From assembly GCA_001513155.1 (NCBI GenBank), contig LFSR01000007.1, positions 1 to 63,611 on the forward strand: 63,611 nt of DNA, given 5' to 3'. Below the pieces are notes generated by a model. The model saw only the letters and a program-made list of their open reading frames with translations, ran no database searches and was not told the origin of the DNA. The stretch is from Syntrophomonas sp. DTU018 (GTDB lineage: Bacteria; Bacillota; Syntrophomonadia; Syntrophomonadales; Syntrophomonadaceae). Position 1 is the stretch's first letter. Each line of letters begins with the position of its first letter. The translations under genes and the position numbers were made by a program. Shown one piece after another: positions 1 through 63,446 of the stretch.

Positions 1-1284
1 ATGCGGAACGTATACGTTGTGGAGGCTGCACGTACGCCAGTAGCTCGTGCAGGAAAACAGTCTTGGTTCACCAACATCCGTGCAGAGGAACTGTCTGCCT
101 TTGTCTTCAAAGAGCTGAGAGAGAGAATCGGCCTGCAAGACAAATCCAAGCAAGGTATAATCGATGACGTTGTATGGGCAACCTGTGCTAACGCCTTTAT
201 GGAGCAGGGTCTCAATATAGGCCGTCTGGCTTGGATCCTCTCCGATGGTTCTTATGATGTTCCTGCCTGTACGGTGGACCGGTTCTGCGCTTCTGGATTG
301 AACTCCATTCAGTTCGCCATCGCCACCATGATGGTAGGCTGGGGCGGAGACGTTCAGATTGCCGGCGGTGTTCAGCACATGACCCACATTCCTATGGGTG
401 CTGGCGCTGACCTCCATCCCGATCTGGGTAACTACATGAACTTAGCAGCCATCAACATGGGTTACACCGCTGAGATCGTAGCCCGCCGCTTCAACGTTAC
501 CCGTGAACAGCAAGACCAGTTTGCTTATGAGTCACACATGAAGTGTGCCGCTGCCCAGGCTAAGAACAAGTGGAAGGATGTTATCATCCCCATCCAGGTA
601 AAAGTTCCGGCTAAGGGCGCCAAGGATCCCAACCCGTTCAACATGCCTGCTAAGTATGTAGCCAGCGAGCATCTAGCCAAGGCTGCTGCCGAGAAGGGTG
701 AAGAGCTGGTAGAAGTCGTTGTAGCCCGCGACCAGGGTGTACGTCCTGATACCACTGTGGAAACTCTGGCCAAGATGCCGACTGTTTTCATGCAGGACGA
801 AGCTGCCACCGTTACCGCTGGTAACTCCTCTCAGATCAACGATGCTGCCGCCGGTGTGGTATTAGCCACCGACGAAGGCTGCAAGGCTCTGGACAAGAAG
901 CCGCTCATGAAGATGGTCAGCTGGGCAGTAGTTGGTCTGGAACCCGACATCATGGGAATTGGTCCTGCTCTGGCTATTCCGAAAGTTCTCAAGAGAGCTG
1001 GAATGACCATGGATCAGATCGATCTGTGGGAGGTCAACGAAGCTTTCGCTTCCCAGGCATACTACTGCTGCGAAAAAGCCCTGAAGCTCCCGAAAGACCG
1101 TTTAAATGTATGGGGTTCTGGTATTTCCATCGGCCATCCTCTGGCCTGCACCGGTGCCCGCATTGCATGCGACATCACCCAGATGCTCAGAGACCCCGAC
1201 TTTGCCGATGTAGAATATGTAGTCGAATCCATGTGCATCGGTCACGGTCATGGTGCTGCTGCTATCTGGCAGAGAGTAAAATAA
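1..1284 (+). CDS. Acetyl-CoA acetyltransferase (thiolase)
   Basis: This is a thiolase that cleaves 3-ketoacyl-CoA with CoA, or runs in reverse, as the last step of a beta-oxidation round. The acyl-accepting cysteine is C96 in VDRFCASGLNS. The late signatures are GISIGHPLACTGAR, which holds the catalytic His, and CIGHGHGAA, which holds the second catalytic Cys (C412). The 427-aa length is slightly above the usual 390-400. The ATG is the first base of the window, so its ribosome site and any upstream extension cannot be seen. It is followed by its own terminator. In a syntrophic fatty-acid oxidiser this would serve butyrate or longer acid breakdown; that role is inferred. The family call is firm, the chain-length specificity is not. 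Confidence 0.93.
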   Translation: MRNVYVVEAARTPVARAGKQSWFTNIRAEELSAFVFKELRERIGLQDKSKQGIIDDVVWATCANAFMEQGLNIGRLAWILSDGSYDVPACTVDRFCASGLNSIQFAIATMMVGWGGDVQIAGGVQHMTHIPMGAGADLHPDLGNYMNLAAINMGYTAEIVARRFNVTREQQDQFAYESHMKCAAAQAKNKWKDVIIPIQVKVPAKGAKDPNPFNMPAKYVASEHLAKAAAEKGEELVEVVVARDQGVRPDTTVETLAKMPTVFMQDEAATVTAGNSSQINDAAAGVVLATDEGCKALDKKPLMKMVSWAVVGLEPDIMGIGPALAIPKVLKRAGMTMDQIDLWEVNEAFASQAYYCCEKALKLPKDRLNVWGSGISIGHPLACTGARIACDITQMLRDPDFADVEYVVESMCIGHGHGAAAIWQRVK

Positions 1285-25473: not shown

Positions 25474-26349
25474 ATGCGCTACGAAGGAGTCATATACAGG
25501 CCGCCCAGTGAAGCAAGCAGTCTGCTGATCCAAGCTACTATTGGGTGTCCTCATAACAAATGCACTTTTTGCCAAATGTACAAAGGTACTCGTTTTCGCC
25601 TGCGTCCGGTTCAGGAGATAAAAGAAGATCTTGCCATGGCCAGGGAGTATTATGGTGATCGCATATATTCGATCTTTTTCCCGGATGGCAATACCATCAT
25701 TATGAAAACTGAACAACTGGAAGAAATCTTTCTCTATGCCCGGGAGCTGTTTCCCCACCTGCAGCGTATTACTGTTTACGGCTCAGCCAGGTTTGTCAAT
25801 AAGAAAAGCCTCCAGGATCTGCAGCGCTTGAAAGAAGCCGGCTTGCGCCGGGTTCATACCGGCATGGAAAGCGGGGATGATGTTACCCTGGCAAGGATAA
25901 ATAAAGGGGTTACCTCGGCGGAGATAATCGAAGCCGGGCTCAAACTTAAAGAAGCCGGTCTGGAAGTCAGCGAGTATTACCTGGTAGGCATCGGGGGATT
26001 GGATAGAACCCGTGAACACGCCCTGGAAAGCGCCCGGGTTTTAAGTGCCATCAGCCCTGATTATATTCGCCTGCGTACCTTTGTACCGGTTCCTAATACT
26101 CCTCTGTATGAGGACTACCGTCAGGGCAAGTTTAAGCTGTTGTCACCCCATCAGGCCTTGCAGGAGGTACGCCTGCTGGTGGAAAACCTGCAGTGCAACA
26201 ACAGCATGGTATTAAGCGATCATGTATCTAATTACTGGGATGTTCATGGTCTTATTCCCCAGGATCGCGAAGAAATGCTGGCTGATCTGGATCAAGCTTT
26301 TGCGATAGATGAAAGCAGGTTCCGCCCCCCGGAAATCAGCCGCTTATAA
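25474..26349 (+). CDS. Radical SAM protein
   Basis: A 291-aa radical SAM enzyme. The cluster cysteines are in IGCPHNKCTFCQMYKG, a CxxxxCxxC spacing (C, then C five residues later, then C three later) near residue 29. The SAM-binding region around FFPDGNTIIM and GSARFVN and the segment LRRVHTGMESGDD are typical of the COG1032-like group. There is no additional Fe-S domain and no B12-binding domain. AGGAGG lies 8 bases before the ATG. The reaction is unknown. It is followed by the sigma-54 control region described next. Confidence 0.88.
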   Translation: MRYEGVIYRPPSEASSLLIQATIGCPHNKCTFCQMYKGTRFRLRPVQEIKEDLAMAREYYGDRIYSIFFPDGNTIIMKTEQLEEIFLYARELFPHLQRITVYGSARFVNKKSLQDLQRLKEAGLRRVHTGMESGDDVTLARINKGVTSAEIIEAGLKLKEAGLEVSEYYLVGIGGLDRTREHALESARVLSAISPDYIRLRTFVPVPNTPLYEDYRQGKFKLLSPHQALQEVRLLVENLQCNNSMVLSDHVSNYWDVHGLIPQDREEMLADLDQAFAIDESRFRPPEISRL

Positions 26350-26351
26350 TA

Positions 26352-26412
26352 TGTCTCAAATCAGATAATAGTGTCTCCATTTAGAGATATTAGATGTCTC
26401 TAAATGGAGACA
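26352..26412 (+). promoter_or_regulatory. Three TGTCTC operator repeats, likely enhancer-binding sites
   Basis: TGTCTC occurs at 26352, 26372 and 26395. The third forms a perfect TGTCTC-N6-GAGACA palindrome, the second is TGTCTC-N6-GAGATA, the first TGTCTC-N6-GATAAT. The two palindromes also pair with each other over 15 bases. They lie 60-120 bp upstream of a sigma-54 promoter, where activator sites normally sit. Confidence 0.7.
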
Positions 26413-26473
26413 ATTAATTTTATGGACTTGTAAAAAGCAGTTTATATTCACTGTAGATAAAGATCCAGTTCCT

Positions 26474-26488
26474 TGGCATACAACTTGC
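26474..26488 (+). promoter_or_regulatory. Sigma-54 (RpoN) promoter
   Basis: TGGCAT-N5-TTGC with the exact -24/-12 spacing and the preceding T of TTGGCAY. Transcription should begin near 26500. No protein gene follows on this strand before a terminator at 26542-26578. Confidence 0.72.
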
Positions 26489-26499
26489 ATATCTAATAG

Positions 26500-26578
26500 G
26501 CAGGGGGGGACATACACATAGGGGTGTATTACCAAAACTGTAGGGGGCTGGTCGGCGATTAGGGCCCCCTCTTTTTTT
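26500..26578 (+). ncRNA. Candidate sigma-54-dependent small RNA (~80 nt)
   Basis: The predicted transcript runs from about 12 bases after the -12 element to a strong terminator. Its 5' part has a small hairpin, ATACAC/GTGTAT with loop ATAGGG, then an unpaired ACCAAAACTGT stretch, then the terminator stem. A GTG-initiated 12-codon frame (26524-26562) is present, but it runs into the terminator stem and its ribosome-like purine run is 14 bases away, so RNA function is favoured. The start point is inferred from the promoter match only. Confidence 0.55.
26542..26578 (+). terminator. Terminator of the short sigma-54 transcript
   Basis: AGGGGGC pairs with GCCCCCT and is followed by CTTTTTTT. The T run is only on the plus strand, so it belongs to this transcript and not to degV, whose stop codon it touches. 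Confidence 0.9.
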
Positions 26579-27423
26579 TATATGTTAACCATTAAGCCGC
26601 CTTCACCAGCGTAAGTCCCGATGGTAGCGCTCATATCACTTATCCACAGGGTACCCGGATTATACCGTTCCGTAATCAGTTGGGCCAGCTGGCGGGCATC
26701 GGACAGGCAATGAACGTGAGTGATCCCCACTATACGGTTTTCCCAATCGGAACCAATCTTCTCTCCCAGTATTTCCACCATCCGTTTGATGGCTTTGCCG
26801 CGCCCGCGAACTTTCTCAAACAGTTCCGGTTTACCATTGTCATTATTGCCCAGGAATATAGGCTTAATATGCAGCAGATCTCCTGCCAGTCCTTCTATTT
26901 TTCTTAATCTGCCCCCCTTAACCACATTTTCCAGGGTATTAAGGGTGAAAATAGTAAGCTTGGATTTTAAAATGCTTTCCAGCCTTTTGACTATTTCATC
27001 CATGCTCAACCCAGCTGCCGCCATCTGAGCAGCTCGAACCGCAATAATGCCGGTTCCCAAGGAGGCAGATAGAGTATCAAATACTCTTACCTTGGTGTTA
27101 CCCAGCATTCTCCGGGCCATCTGAGCAATCTCGTAAGTACTGCTTAGGCCGGAAGACAGGCTGATAAACAACACTTCTCCTGCTTCCCGCAGTCCTTTCT
27201 CAAAGTGTTCTATAAACGTGCTGGGGTCAGGAGCAGAGGTTTTGGGCAGGGTTTTAGATGCTGCCATTTTCTTGACAAAAAGCTCCGGGGACAATTCCCA
27301 ACGATCCAGATAAGTCTCTCCATTGGCAAAAGTTACTCTCAGGGGAATTATTTCAATCTGATACTGGTCCAGAATCTCATCAGGAAGATCACAGGAAGTA
27401 TCAGTCAAAATTTTGATTGCCAT
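26578..27423 (-). CDS. DegV family fatty-acid-binding protein
   Basis: A 281-aa DegV/FakB-like protein. Members bind a single fatty acid and in many Firmicutes present it to the kinase FakA. Typical parts are the N-terminal KILTDTSCDLPDEIL, the segment PKTSAPDPSTF, FISLSSGLSSTYE and the C-terminal IGTYAGEGGLMVNI. Length is normal. It is monocistronic and convergent with the short sigma-54 transcript. Ligand specificity and whether a FakA kinase exists elsewhere cannot be told from the window. Confidence 0.92.
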   Translation of the reverse strand: MAIKILTDTSCDLPDEILDQYQIEIIPLRVTFANGETYLDRWELSPELFVKKMAASKTLPKTSAPDPSTFIEHFEKGLREAGEVLFISLSSGLSSTYEIAQMARRMLGNTKVRVFDTLSASLGTGIIAVRAAQMAAAGLSMDEIVKRLESILKSKLTIFTLNTLENVVKGGRLRKIEGLAGDLLHIKPIFLGNNDNGKPELFEKVRGRGKAIKRMVEILGEKIGSDWENRIVGITHVHCLSDARQLAQLITERYNPGTLWISDMSATIGTYAGEGGLMVNI

Positions 27424-27486
27424 AAATCTGCCTCCTTAATCATGCGTTACTGCCTGCTGGGGCATTTCTGGGAAAACAACTGCGCT

Positions 27487-27575
27487 GTGTCTTTGCGAGG
27501 AGCGAAGGGACGTGGCGATCTATTTTCGCAGCCTGCGAGCCTCTTTTGAGATCGCTTCGCTGCCCTCGCAATTAT
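27487..27575. repeat. REP-like ~95-bp palindromic element, copy 4
   Basis: Bounded by TGTCTTTGCGAGGAGCG and CTGCCCTCGCAATTA. It is immediately followed by the shared flanking module (27570-27614) leading into copy 5. Confidence 0.7.
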
Positions 27576-27614
27576 CACCTGAATAACAGGCCACGATAAA
27601 TGAAAACTTAAGCC

Positions 27615-27707
27615 TGTCATCGCGAGGAGCGCAGCGACGTGGCGATCTGTTAACTCACACCGTTAGTTGCCATAGAGATTGCCACGCGCTACGCGCTCGC
27701 AATGACA
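27615..27707. repeat. REP-like ~95-bp palindromic element, copy 5
   Basis: Bounded by TGTCATCGCGAGGAGCG and CGCTCGCAATGACA. Its interior (GATCTGTTAACTCACACCG onward) is virtually identical to the copy at 31343, suggesting recent duplication. The region 27424-27896 holds two copies and flanking modules, with no gene. Confidence 0.78.
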
Positions 27708-27896
27708 ATGGGGAGCTATTATCCCAGCCATGACATACTAGGGAAGCCGTTTTCACAGCAATGACACAAAAGGTGACTTTTCATTTATGGTGCCCTGCGC
27801 CGCAGGTGATAATTGCTTTCATAACAGCCCGCGCCAAAGCAGCGTGGGCCATGACAGGCTCATGATTTACATGTATCGTGACCTGTTCCCGGGTTT

Positions 27897-55067: not shown

Positions 55068-56375
55068 TCAGAACAAAGTCTGCTCCGTTATCTCCGTAGT
55101 AAGTGCTTTTAGGGCTCTTTCCACTAAACTCCTGCGCAGTGCTCTTTCTTCTTTAATGTCCAAGCTTGGATTTCCTAGCGGGTGAGGTATAGCCACTGCC
55201 GGAACGATGCGATTTGCTCCTACCGTTAAAGATATAGGAACAATAGTACAAATATGAACCACGGGCACATTTACCGTTTCTTCCAATTCTTTCACCATTG
55301 TTGCACCGCAACGAGTACAAGTCCCTCAGGTAGAGGTAAGTATTATTCCGTCAATGTTTTCTTTGGCTAACTCCAGGCCAATAGCATGGGCATATTTTTG
55401 TGCATTGGCTACAGAAGTGCCATTACCTACCGTTGCATAGTAAATGTTGTGAAGGCTGCCAATGATCCCTTCTTTCTCCAGCTGGCGCATAACATCAACA
55501 GGTAATACCCTATCAGGATCCTGATTGGCATAAACTGGATCATAGCCCCCATGGGCAGTCTGGAAAGTTTCCGGAGTCAGATCCTCAATTCCCGTTATAT
55601 CATAGCGTCCAAAGTGGGTGGCACTGGAAGCCTCAATACGGTCAGGATTACCTTTAGGAACAATTCCACCAGAAGTAACCAGGGCAATTTTAGCATGTTT
55701 GAGATCTTTTATGGGCGGACGAGGTGTTACCCGGCTGAAACTGGGCATAGGATATTCGGTCTGGTAAGGTTCTCCCTTTAGCTTCTTTATTAACATTTCT
55801 ACGGCACGGGCGGATCCCCGTTCCTTATGCACGATGTTTACCCTTATTCCTTTTTCGAGATAACCTTCTTCCTCGGGAGTTCCCAATTCCTCTCCCCGTG
55901 CTAATTTCAGAGCCAATTTACTCATCGCAGAAATAGCTTCCCGCATTTTAGCCGCAGAATTTCCGGTTTTGACTATATATACTTGTTTGCGGTAAAGATC
56001 AGCACCTGGATTTTCTTCATACATACCTGTTATGACAGGAATAGAAAATCTTTCCGCTACAGCCGCGCATACAGCACCACATGCCATACCATATCTGCCG
56101 GCATTAAAAGCAGGTCCGGCAATTAAAATCTGTGGCTTGTACCCAGATATCAGATCCAAAATTTCCTGGGTAGCTTTCTCAATATTCTCATTGAAGTAAG
56201 TATCACCGCATATTATAGTACCCACTATTTCAATCTCGGAGCCAAAAGCTTTTTGCAAAGCGGTACCTGGTCCTACCGGTCCATCCTGCTTAAAGGGTTT
56301 GATATCAGCTTTTTCTTCTCCGCCAATTTGCCCGAAGAATTGATTTATATAATGAACAGCTTTCACCGTTGCCAT
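55068..56375 (-). CDS. grdB: Glycine reductase component B selenoprotein (Sec350)
   Basis: GrdB is the substrate-specific large subunit that, with pyruvoyl-containing GrdE products, binds glycine as a Schiff base. The frame contains one TGA at 55326-55328. Read as Sec it gives ILTST-U-GTCTRCGATM, the GrdB active site with UxxCxxC, at residue 350. The 435-aa total is the usual length. The ATG at 56375 is chosen because GGGGAG lies 8 bases upstream; the frame is open nine codons further. A hairpin follows the UGA. Confidence 0.95.
55300..55312 (-). promoter_or_regulatory. SECIS hairpin of grdB (core)
   Basis: GTTGC-GGT-GCAAC forms a perfect stem 13 bases downstream of the UGA; TGT and ACA can extend it across an internal loop. 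The short core makes this less certain than the hdrA and floxD hairpins. Confidence 0.55.
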
Positions 56376-59787: not shown

Positions 59788-59832
59788 TAATAAAACAAAC
59801 AGAGAACAAGTGATCCTTGTTCTCTGTTTGTT
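59788..59832 (-). terminator. Riboswitch-linked intrinsic terminator (grd leader)
   Basis: AACAAACAGAGAACAAG and its complement form a 17-bp perfect stem with loop GATCA on the minus strand, then TTTTATTA. It lies between the glycine aptamers and trxB and is the likely expression platform. Confidence 0.9.
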
Positions 59833-60003
59833 AACCTGAGAGTTTCGCTTGCGCTTGCCCCTTTGGTGTCATCCGACTCTCCAGAGACTGGTCCGAGCTC
59901 GATCCGTTAACCTGAGAGTTTCACATTTTCCAGCGGATCACTGGAAAAGTTTGCTCCTTCGGTGTGAGTATTATACTCAGCTCTCTCGAGCCCATCATCC
60001 CTC
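59833..60003 (-). promoter_or_regulatory. Tandem glycine riboswitch of the grd operon
   Basis: Two successive gcvT-motif aptamers on the minus strand. Each carries the conserved GGAGAGAGC-type start, the CACCGAAGGAGCAA or CACCAAAGGGGCAAGC core, and GAAACTCTCAGGTTAAC end. Two aptamers in a row followed by one terminator is the classical cooperative glycine switch. Glycine should permit transcription into trxB-grdCD. Confidence 0.95.
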
Positions 60004-63279: not shown

Positions 63280-63446
63280 TAACCTGAGAGTTTCACCACG
63301 CGGTTTGCCCCTTCGGTGTCGAATGACTTCCCAGAGGATGGTCGGGGTACGATCCTTTTACCTGAGAGTTTCGCATTTTTCAGGGACAAAAAATGCTTGC
63401 TCCTTCGGTGTGAGCTCGCGCTCCCTCTCTCGATACCCTTCATCCC
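63280..63446 (-). promoter_or_regulatory. Second tandem glycine riboswitch
   Basis: Again two gcvT-type aptamers: the minus strand shows CGAGAGAGGGAGC, CACCGAAGGAGCAAGC, GAAACTCTCAGGTAAAAG, then a second CACCGAAGGGGCAAACC and GAAACTCTCAGGTTAATG. The downstream gcvPA/gcvPB copies are broken. The switch itself looks intact. Confidence 0.94.

Follow-up and report, generated by a model that had tools for sequence, protein, structure and literature searches.

Results

Architecture of the locus

The window analyzed here, i.e., the complete stretch of 63,611 nucleotides from Syntrophomonas sp. DTU018 (contig LFSR01000007.1 of assembly GCA_001513155.1), carries a predicted short unit on its forward strand that is flanked by a radical-SAM gene (25474..26349, forward strand, Pfam PF04055), a directly adjacent upstream neighbor outside the unit, and a convergent degV gene (26578..27423, minus strand, Pfam PF02645), both also supported by synteny. 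Between degV and a DUF1285 gene, positions 27480-27710 harbor REP-like dispersed repeats (GCGAGGAGCG..GACGTGGCGATCT), and similar repeats come after the radical-SAM gene at locus L096. Elsewhere in the window, a SECIS_4 element (55288-55325) lies inside or beside a probable selenoprotein gene, a pair of tandem glycine riboswitches is present at 59821-59998 and a single match to a glycine riboswitch aptamer at 63341-63442, near the window end, all on the minus strand.

The unit starts with three 18-bp operators on the forward strand that are all built on TGTCTC-N6-GAGACA, with TGTCTC at 26352, 26372 and 26395. Operator 3 (26395..26412) is a perfect palindrome, the promoter-proximal edge of which is 61 bp away from the -24 element. 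Operator 2 (26372..26389, TGTCTCCATTTAGAGATA) fits the palindrome in 11 of 12 positions and is part of the conserved array, while operator 1 (26352..26369, TGTCTCAAATCAGATAAT) fits in 9 of 12 and has a counterpart in the three-operator arrays of relatives. The operators announced by the original prediction thus stand in number and place, two of them as imperfect copies. Their distances of -79, -102 and -122 relative to the TGG of the -24 element fall, as had been claimed, within the range of about 60-150 bp upstream from which activators work. The -24/-12 promoter for sigma-54 (26473..26489, forward strand) reads TTGGCAT-ACAAC-TTGCA, with its TGGCAT-N5-TTGC core at 26474-26488, and matches the consensus YTGGCAY-N5-TTGCW perfectly.

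The predicted small RNA of about 80 nt (26500..26579, forward strand), delimited on the basis of a covariance model and DNA homologues, would start around 26500, 12 nt past the C of the -12 element. It contains a G-run near the inferred 5' end (26503..26509), a hairpin ATACAC-N6-GTGTAT followed by a conserved ACC(A) (26512..26529), and an intrinsic terminator (26542..26579) with a stem at approximately 26542-26570, a run of eight Ts at 26572-26579 and an often conserved loop, resembling TGANCGGC in most genera. Two nucleotides of the T-run are shared with the degV stop. Repeats, perfect palindrome, promoter, terminator and overlap with the degV stop are all located where the original prediction had placed them.

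Within the window alone, operator and promoter motifs are mildly unusual, and the main support comes from conservation. At up to two mismatches the palindrome is matched three times vs. 1.35 times expected, and at up to one mismatch the promoter consensus is matched twice vs. 1.9 times expected, this site being the only perfect match. Across the entire genome of 2.56 Mb, the palindrome, with up to one mismatch allowed, is found at two sites of this array and in one other place only.

Conservation of the unit among Syntrophomonadaceae

Homologues were collected by a DNA search of 61 genomes and by a covariance-model search of 54 Syntrophomonadaceae genomes, for which a first model with a poor consensus structure (misaligned arms) served for homologue finding only. 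RNA homologues occur in 16 of the 54 genomes, the weakest accepted one scoring 43 bits and the best rejected match, taken as chance, 29 bits. All 15 homologous loci whose upstream sequence is readable have the -24/-12 element in the corresponding position (the masked upstream region of G002 was left out of this count), and the distance from the C of the -12 element to the G-run amounts to 12-16 nt in each of them. The three-operator array is kept in ten loci with spacings of 18-20 bp and then 23-24 bp. Conservation of promoter, operators and terminator in relatives, which had been named as a check, was thus borne out.

All 16 RNA loci are situated downstream of the same radical-SAM gene, and on the 3' side they are followed by degV in some genera and by the DUF1285 gene in several others. 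Among 28 control genomes that contain the radical-SAM gene and lack the RNA, none features a sigma-54 promoter within 400 nt after this gene, which indicates that the RNA is a discrete cassette, either present or absent. In two such genomes about 10 nt separate the end of the radical-SAM gene from the degV stop. In a tree of radical-SAM proteins the RNA carriers do not form one clade, most of the deep forks in this tree being weak. When 84,980 named species were scanned with a pattern of the core, which would not pick up the divergent forms of g9 and g23, matches came from nine records of the Syntrophomonadaceae type, Syntrophomonas palmitatica among them, and from one unrelated contig of Maribacter that we take as a chance match.

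Judged from these 16 homologues and 28 controls, the original proposal of an RNA product made from a sigma-54 promoter that is preceded by an operator array is strongly supported. The same comparison bears on a different view, in which the TGTCTC repeats either are mobile or fold into a hairpin terminating the radical-SAM gene, with the promoter resembling the consensus by chance. Positions 26372-26412 can indeed form a 19-bp stem that is followed by AT-rich sequence; however, the sites of other genera are not mutually complementary and yet keep the operator spacing, the promoter is present in 15 of 15 readable loci, and there is no other high-similarity copy of the repeat in the genome. The comparative sequence data contradict this view, to which we assign hardly any probability.

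Structure and coding capacity of the RNA

The predicted fold of the RNA is somewhat more stable than folds of shuffled sequence (z = -2.0). Neither an Rfam family at gathering score nor a credible weak match was found for positions 26330-26600. A run of at least five Gs (G5-8) is present in all 16 homologues and begins between about +1 and +5 relative to the inferred start. The arms of the small hairpin are nearly invariant in nine of the twelve hairpin-type homologues and for this reason provide little covariation evidence; the hairpin is shortened in g20, unformed in the predicted fold of g23 and lost in genus g9. For the terminator, folds computed for ten sequences revealed that stem pairing is kept while the sequence varies, e.g., GGGGGC/GCCCCC, GAGGGAC/GTCCCTC and GGAGGC/GCCTCC. 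The loop of the terminator is unusually conserved in most genera (TTGANCGGC-NTAAA), suggesting a second functional element. Genus g9 (L044-L047) deviates in that a single operator palindrome is located farther out upstream, accompanied by a separate conserved block, TACAAATTTACGGAATATTCTTACAGG, and the RNA is devoid of the hairpin.

It had been put forward that a 12-residue peptide might be read from the GTG at 26524 (VYYQNCRGLVGD), in which case the unit would specify a short mRNA. Several homologues in fact exhibit the GTG followed by TAT-TAC/AAC-CAN codons. The GTG, however, sits within a hairpin arm, which accounts for its conservation; the start is lost in g20, where it is replaced by GAG, and in g23, both of them genera with hairpin-type RNA, and is absent in g9; the reading frame enters and overlaps the terminator stem; and frames, lengths and sequences differ among the homologues. 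We consider the existence of such a peptide highly improbable and, judging by these comparisons, regard the locus 26352-26579 as encoding no protein.

Two further ideas were rejected, namely a CsrA-type GGA hairpin, the loop of which is not conserved in the alignment, and cis-antisense action on degV, with which the overlap is 2 nt and which is not the neighbor in several genera. Features read from the sequence, i.e., an own promoter, a short non-coding unit, an intrinsic terminator and conservation, are those of a trans-acting small RNA.

Operators shared with genes for beta-oxidation

The original prediction had suggested a scan for the operator at other sigma-54 promoters. A search for the operator combined with a sigma-54 promoter over 54 genomes yielded the window locus, its closest homologue, three homologous sites that precede a thiolase gene (g1, two sites; g10, one site), one site before an acyl-CoA dehydrogenase gene in G024 and one inside a reading frame. 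The three genomes with operator and promoter at the thiolase site all carry the RNA. In the genome from which the window stems, the thiolase operon continues with genes for a CoA-transferase, a thiolase and an acyl-CoA dehydrogenase and is divergent from a gene for an enhancer-binding protein (EBP), L119; the gene names given in this section were assigned by recognized sequence similarity. At G000:C2:80000-92000 (L257), divergent from L119, TGTCTC-type operators and a TGGTAT-N5-TTGC promoter accompany genes for a member of the thiolase family, CoA-transferase, thiolase and acyl-CoA dehydrogenase, and the leader of this beta-oxidation operon contains a conserved AAGAGGCCTCTT palindrome. An operator dedicated to the RNA, as first suggested by the genome scan, was dropped as an idea, degenerate sites having been found at beta-oxidation operons.

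As operator and promoter recur at the thiolase operon and at an acyl-CoA dehydrogenase gene, the RNA shares control sites with genes of beta-oxidation and butyryl-CoA metabolism and would thus probably be made when those genes are switched on.

A candidate activator

The statement that the activator is not encoded in the window turned out to be right, and a strong candidate, L115, is encoded elsewhere in the genome, which specifies 20 strong sigma-54 activators. Nine RNA-positive genomes, among them G025 with no more than five activators, contributed a total of 80 activators to a tree. EBP L124, which initially stood out as the sole reciprocal best match in five RNA-positive genomes, was excluded, being absent from G003, G012, G030 and G074 and present in many RNA-negative genomes.

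L115 consists of two CBS domains, a PAS domain, an AAA+ domain and a Fis helix-turn-helix and is encoded in a pfkA-EBP-hbd gene string. In a family-wide search it occurred in exactly 12 genomes, i.e., in all carriers of the hairpin-type RNA, and in none of the 38 RNA-negative ones, counts that are not independent as the genomes are related; at the genus level, a hypergeometric calculation by hand (five of five EBP genera inside six RNA genera, out of 23) gave approximately 2e-4. L115 is absent from genus g9, in which four genomes have a divergent RNA and fewer operators. Genomes with TGTCTC operators have an L115 recognition helix that reads HRSLLYKK, while that of G025, with TGTATC/TGTAGC operators, reads HRTHLYKK. 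Members of a sister EBP clade are encoded immediately before another hbd, from which they are separated by TGTCTC/TGTCGC-N6-GCAACA-type sites and a sigma-54 promoter; this arrangement independently links this group of EBPs with hbd and with operators of this kind. Loci of the sister clade are L202, L140, L144 and L142 (about 700-1100, minus strand), and the hbd leader is long.

On the basis of these comparisons, the CBS-PAS-AAA+-Fis enhancer-binding protein L115 is the best candidate for the activator. A sigma-54-dependent small RNA as described could in principle also be under the control of a different EBP, such as L123, L119 next to the thiolase operon in g1, or L142 of the hbd-linked sister clade in g9, or of several EBPs sharing operators. 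The L123 clade is represented in the same seven of the nine genomes, but its recognition helices vary across genomes with unchanged TGTCTC operators. L119, divergent from the thiolase operon with the same operators, could own the motif in g1; its clade, however, is confined to G000 and G003 among the nine genomes of the tree. The L142 clade is present in g9, which lacks L115, and has TGTCTC/TGTCGC-N6-GCAACA sites before hbd. L115, on the other hand, fits presence and absence of the RNA exactly, and we deem control by another EBP, or by several, rather unlikely.

Possible modes of action

A 12-nt perfect complement of the small RNA exists in the mRNA of L115 itself in the genome from which the window stems; feedback pairing with the activator mRNA was rejected, the match being absent in all relatives. 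A duplex scan of translation starts, covering part of the genome, performed no better than shuffled sequence and revealed no conserved target in that part.

Instead of pairing with mRNAs, the RNA might titrate a protein or a ribosome-associated factor via its G-rich 5' end, comparable to sequestration by CrcZ. The run of G5-8 near the inferred 5' end is its most conserved feature, and CbrB-CrcZ sets a precedent for an EBP of carbon metabolism that drives a titrating small RNA. Against this, there is one short run and not multiple repeated sites, and the conserved ACCA and terminator loop point to a role beyond that of a simple sponge, so that we judge titration improbable.

Discussion

Members of the Syntrophomonadaceae subsist on fatty acids, which they degrade jointly with microbial partners. 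Regulation of metabolism in syntrophic fatty-acid oxidizers, through which a major part of carbon flows in methanogenic habitats, is little known (PMC4324140). For S. wolfei, a PAS/sigma-54 regulator has been seen only in butyrate-grown cells (PMC4324140), and butyrate operons controlled by EBPs are known from other Clostridia (PMC6615313).

Sequence comparison, i.e., the conserved promoter, operators and RNA, the presence or absence of the cassette, the common operator motif and the co-occurrence with the EBP, points most likely to a trans-acting small RNA that is induced together with genes for beta-oxidation and butyryl-CoA metabolism. We are fairly confident in proposing a stand-alone gene for a small regulatory RNA that would be driven by sigma-54 and an L115-type EBP on three operators, be induced along with beta-oxidation and act by base pairing with mRNAs. 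Regarding transcription, EBP binding, signal, base pairing and targets, we infer the following course of events. The hbd-linked EBP of the CBS-PAS-AAA+-Fis type would sense a signal, which its CBS and PAS domains suggest to be an intracellular metabolite or a redox cue. It would then bind the three TGTCTC-N6-GAGACA operators, assemble there much like NorR on its three sites and activate sigma-54 RNA polymerase at the -24/-12 promoter, the result being an RNA of about 80 nt that carries a G-run at its 5' end, a terminator and, in most cases, a small hairpin. The EBP would switch on this RNA together with the fatty-acid genes, and the RNA would probably adjust other mRNAs by base pairing via exposed conserved segments, namely the 5' G-run and possibly the terminator loop. 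With the RNA, the promoter with its operators, a candidate activator and metabolic operons with the same operators now defined, the circuit is directly testable.

GlmY and GlmZ are sigma-54-dependent small RNAs of Proteobacteria, and to our knowledge small RNAs controlled by sigma-54 are known only from this phylum. Our literature search, incomplete in coverage, found no published description of the RNA reported here nor of a sigma-54-dependent small RNA in Firmicutes. As far as the assignments quoted from the work on Clostridioides difficile go, most small RNA promoters are attributed to SigA and none to SigL (PMC7438776). We tentatively suggest, with slightly less than even confidence, that the RNA is the first one in Firmicutes to be controlled by sigma-54 and an EBP and that it forms part of the butyryl-CoA/beta-oxidation regulon in syntrophic oxidizers of fatty acids, in which case the cell could tie the oxidation of fatty acids to the post-transcriptional regulation of further genes; it would extend sigma-54-controlled small RNAs beyond Proteobacteria to another phylum.

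Regulons of the CrbR/AhcR/XcgR type in Clostridiales likewise involve EBPs with palindromic sites and genes of the crt-hbd-thl-bcd-etf type; their reconstruction lists protein-coding operons, mentions no small RNA and does not include Syntrophomonas (PMC6615313). The NorR enhancer at norVW shares three palindromic sites upstream of a sigma-54 promoter that serve as scaffold for an EBP oligomer (PMC2941729), but drives protein genes and differs in motif and sensor. Ten of our loci, with spacings of 18-20 and 23-24 bp, have such a triple-enhancer layout, a resemblance in layout and not homology. Qrr1-5 of Vibrio are also small, trans-acting RNAs with EBP-dependent promoters and upstream activator sites (PMC8043402); in contrast, they act in quorum sensing, depend on a two-component activator (LuxO-P) and are unrelated in sequence. 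CrcZ, CrcY and CrcX of Pseudomonas and Azotobacter, small RNAs of carbon catabolite control activated by CbrB and sigma-54, are likewise stand-alone small RNAs with a sigma-54 promoter and an EBP tied to carbon use (PMC8657755). The RNA described here differs from them in phylum, sequence and its length of about 80 nt, no CA-rich Hfq/Crc sites were recognized in it, and positions 26330-26600 gave no Rfam match that would indicate homology to CrcZ in sequence or structure; furthermore, its candidate activator is of a one-component CBS-PAS type, whereas that of CrcZ/CrcY/CrcX is a two-component regulator. It is thus most likely a new family of a known kind of small RNA, exemplified by CrcZ, Qrr and GlmY, in Firmicutes.
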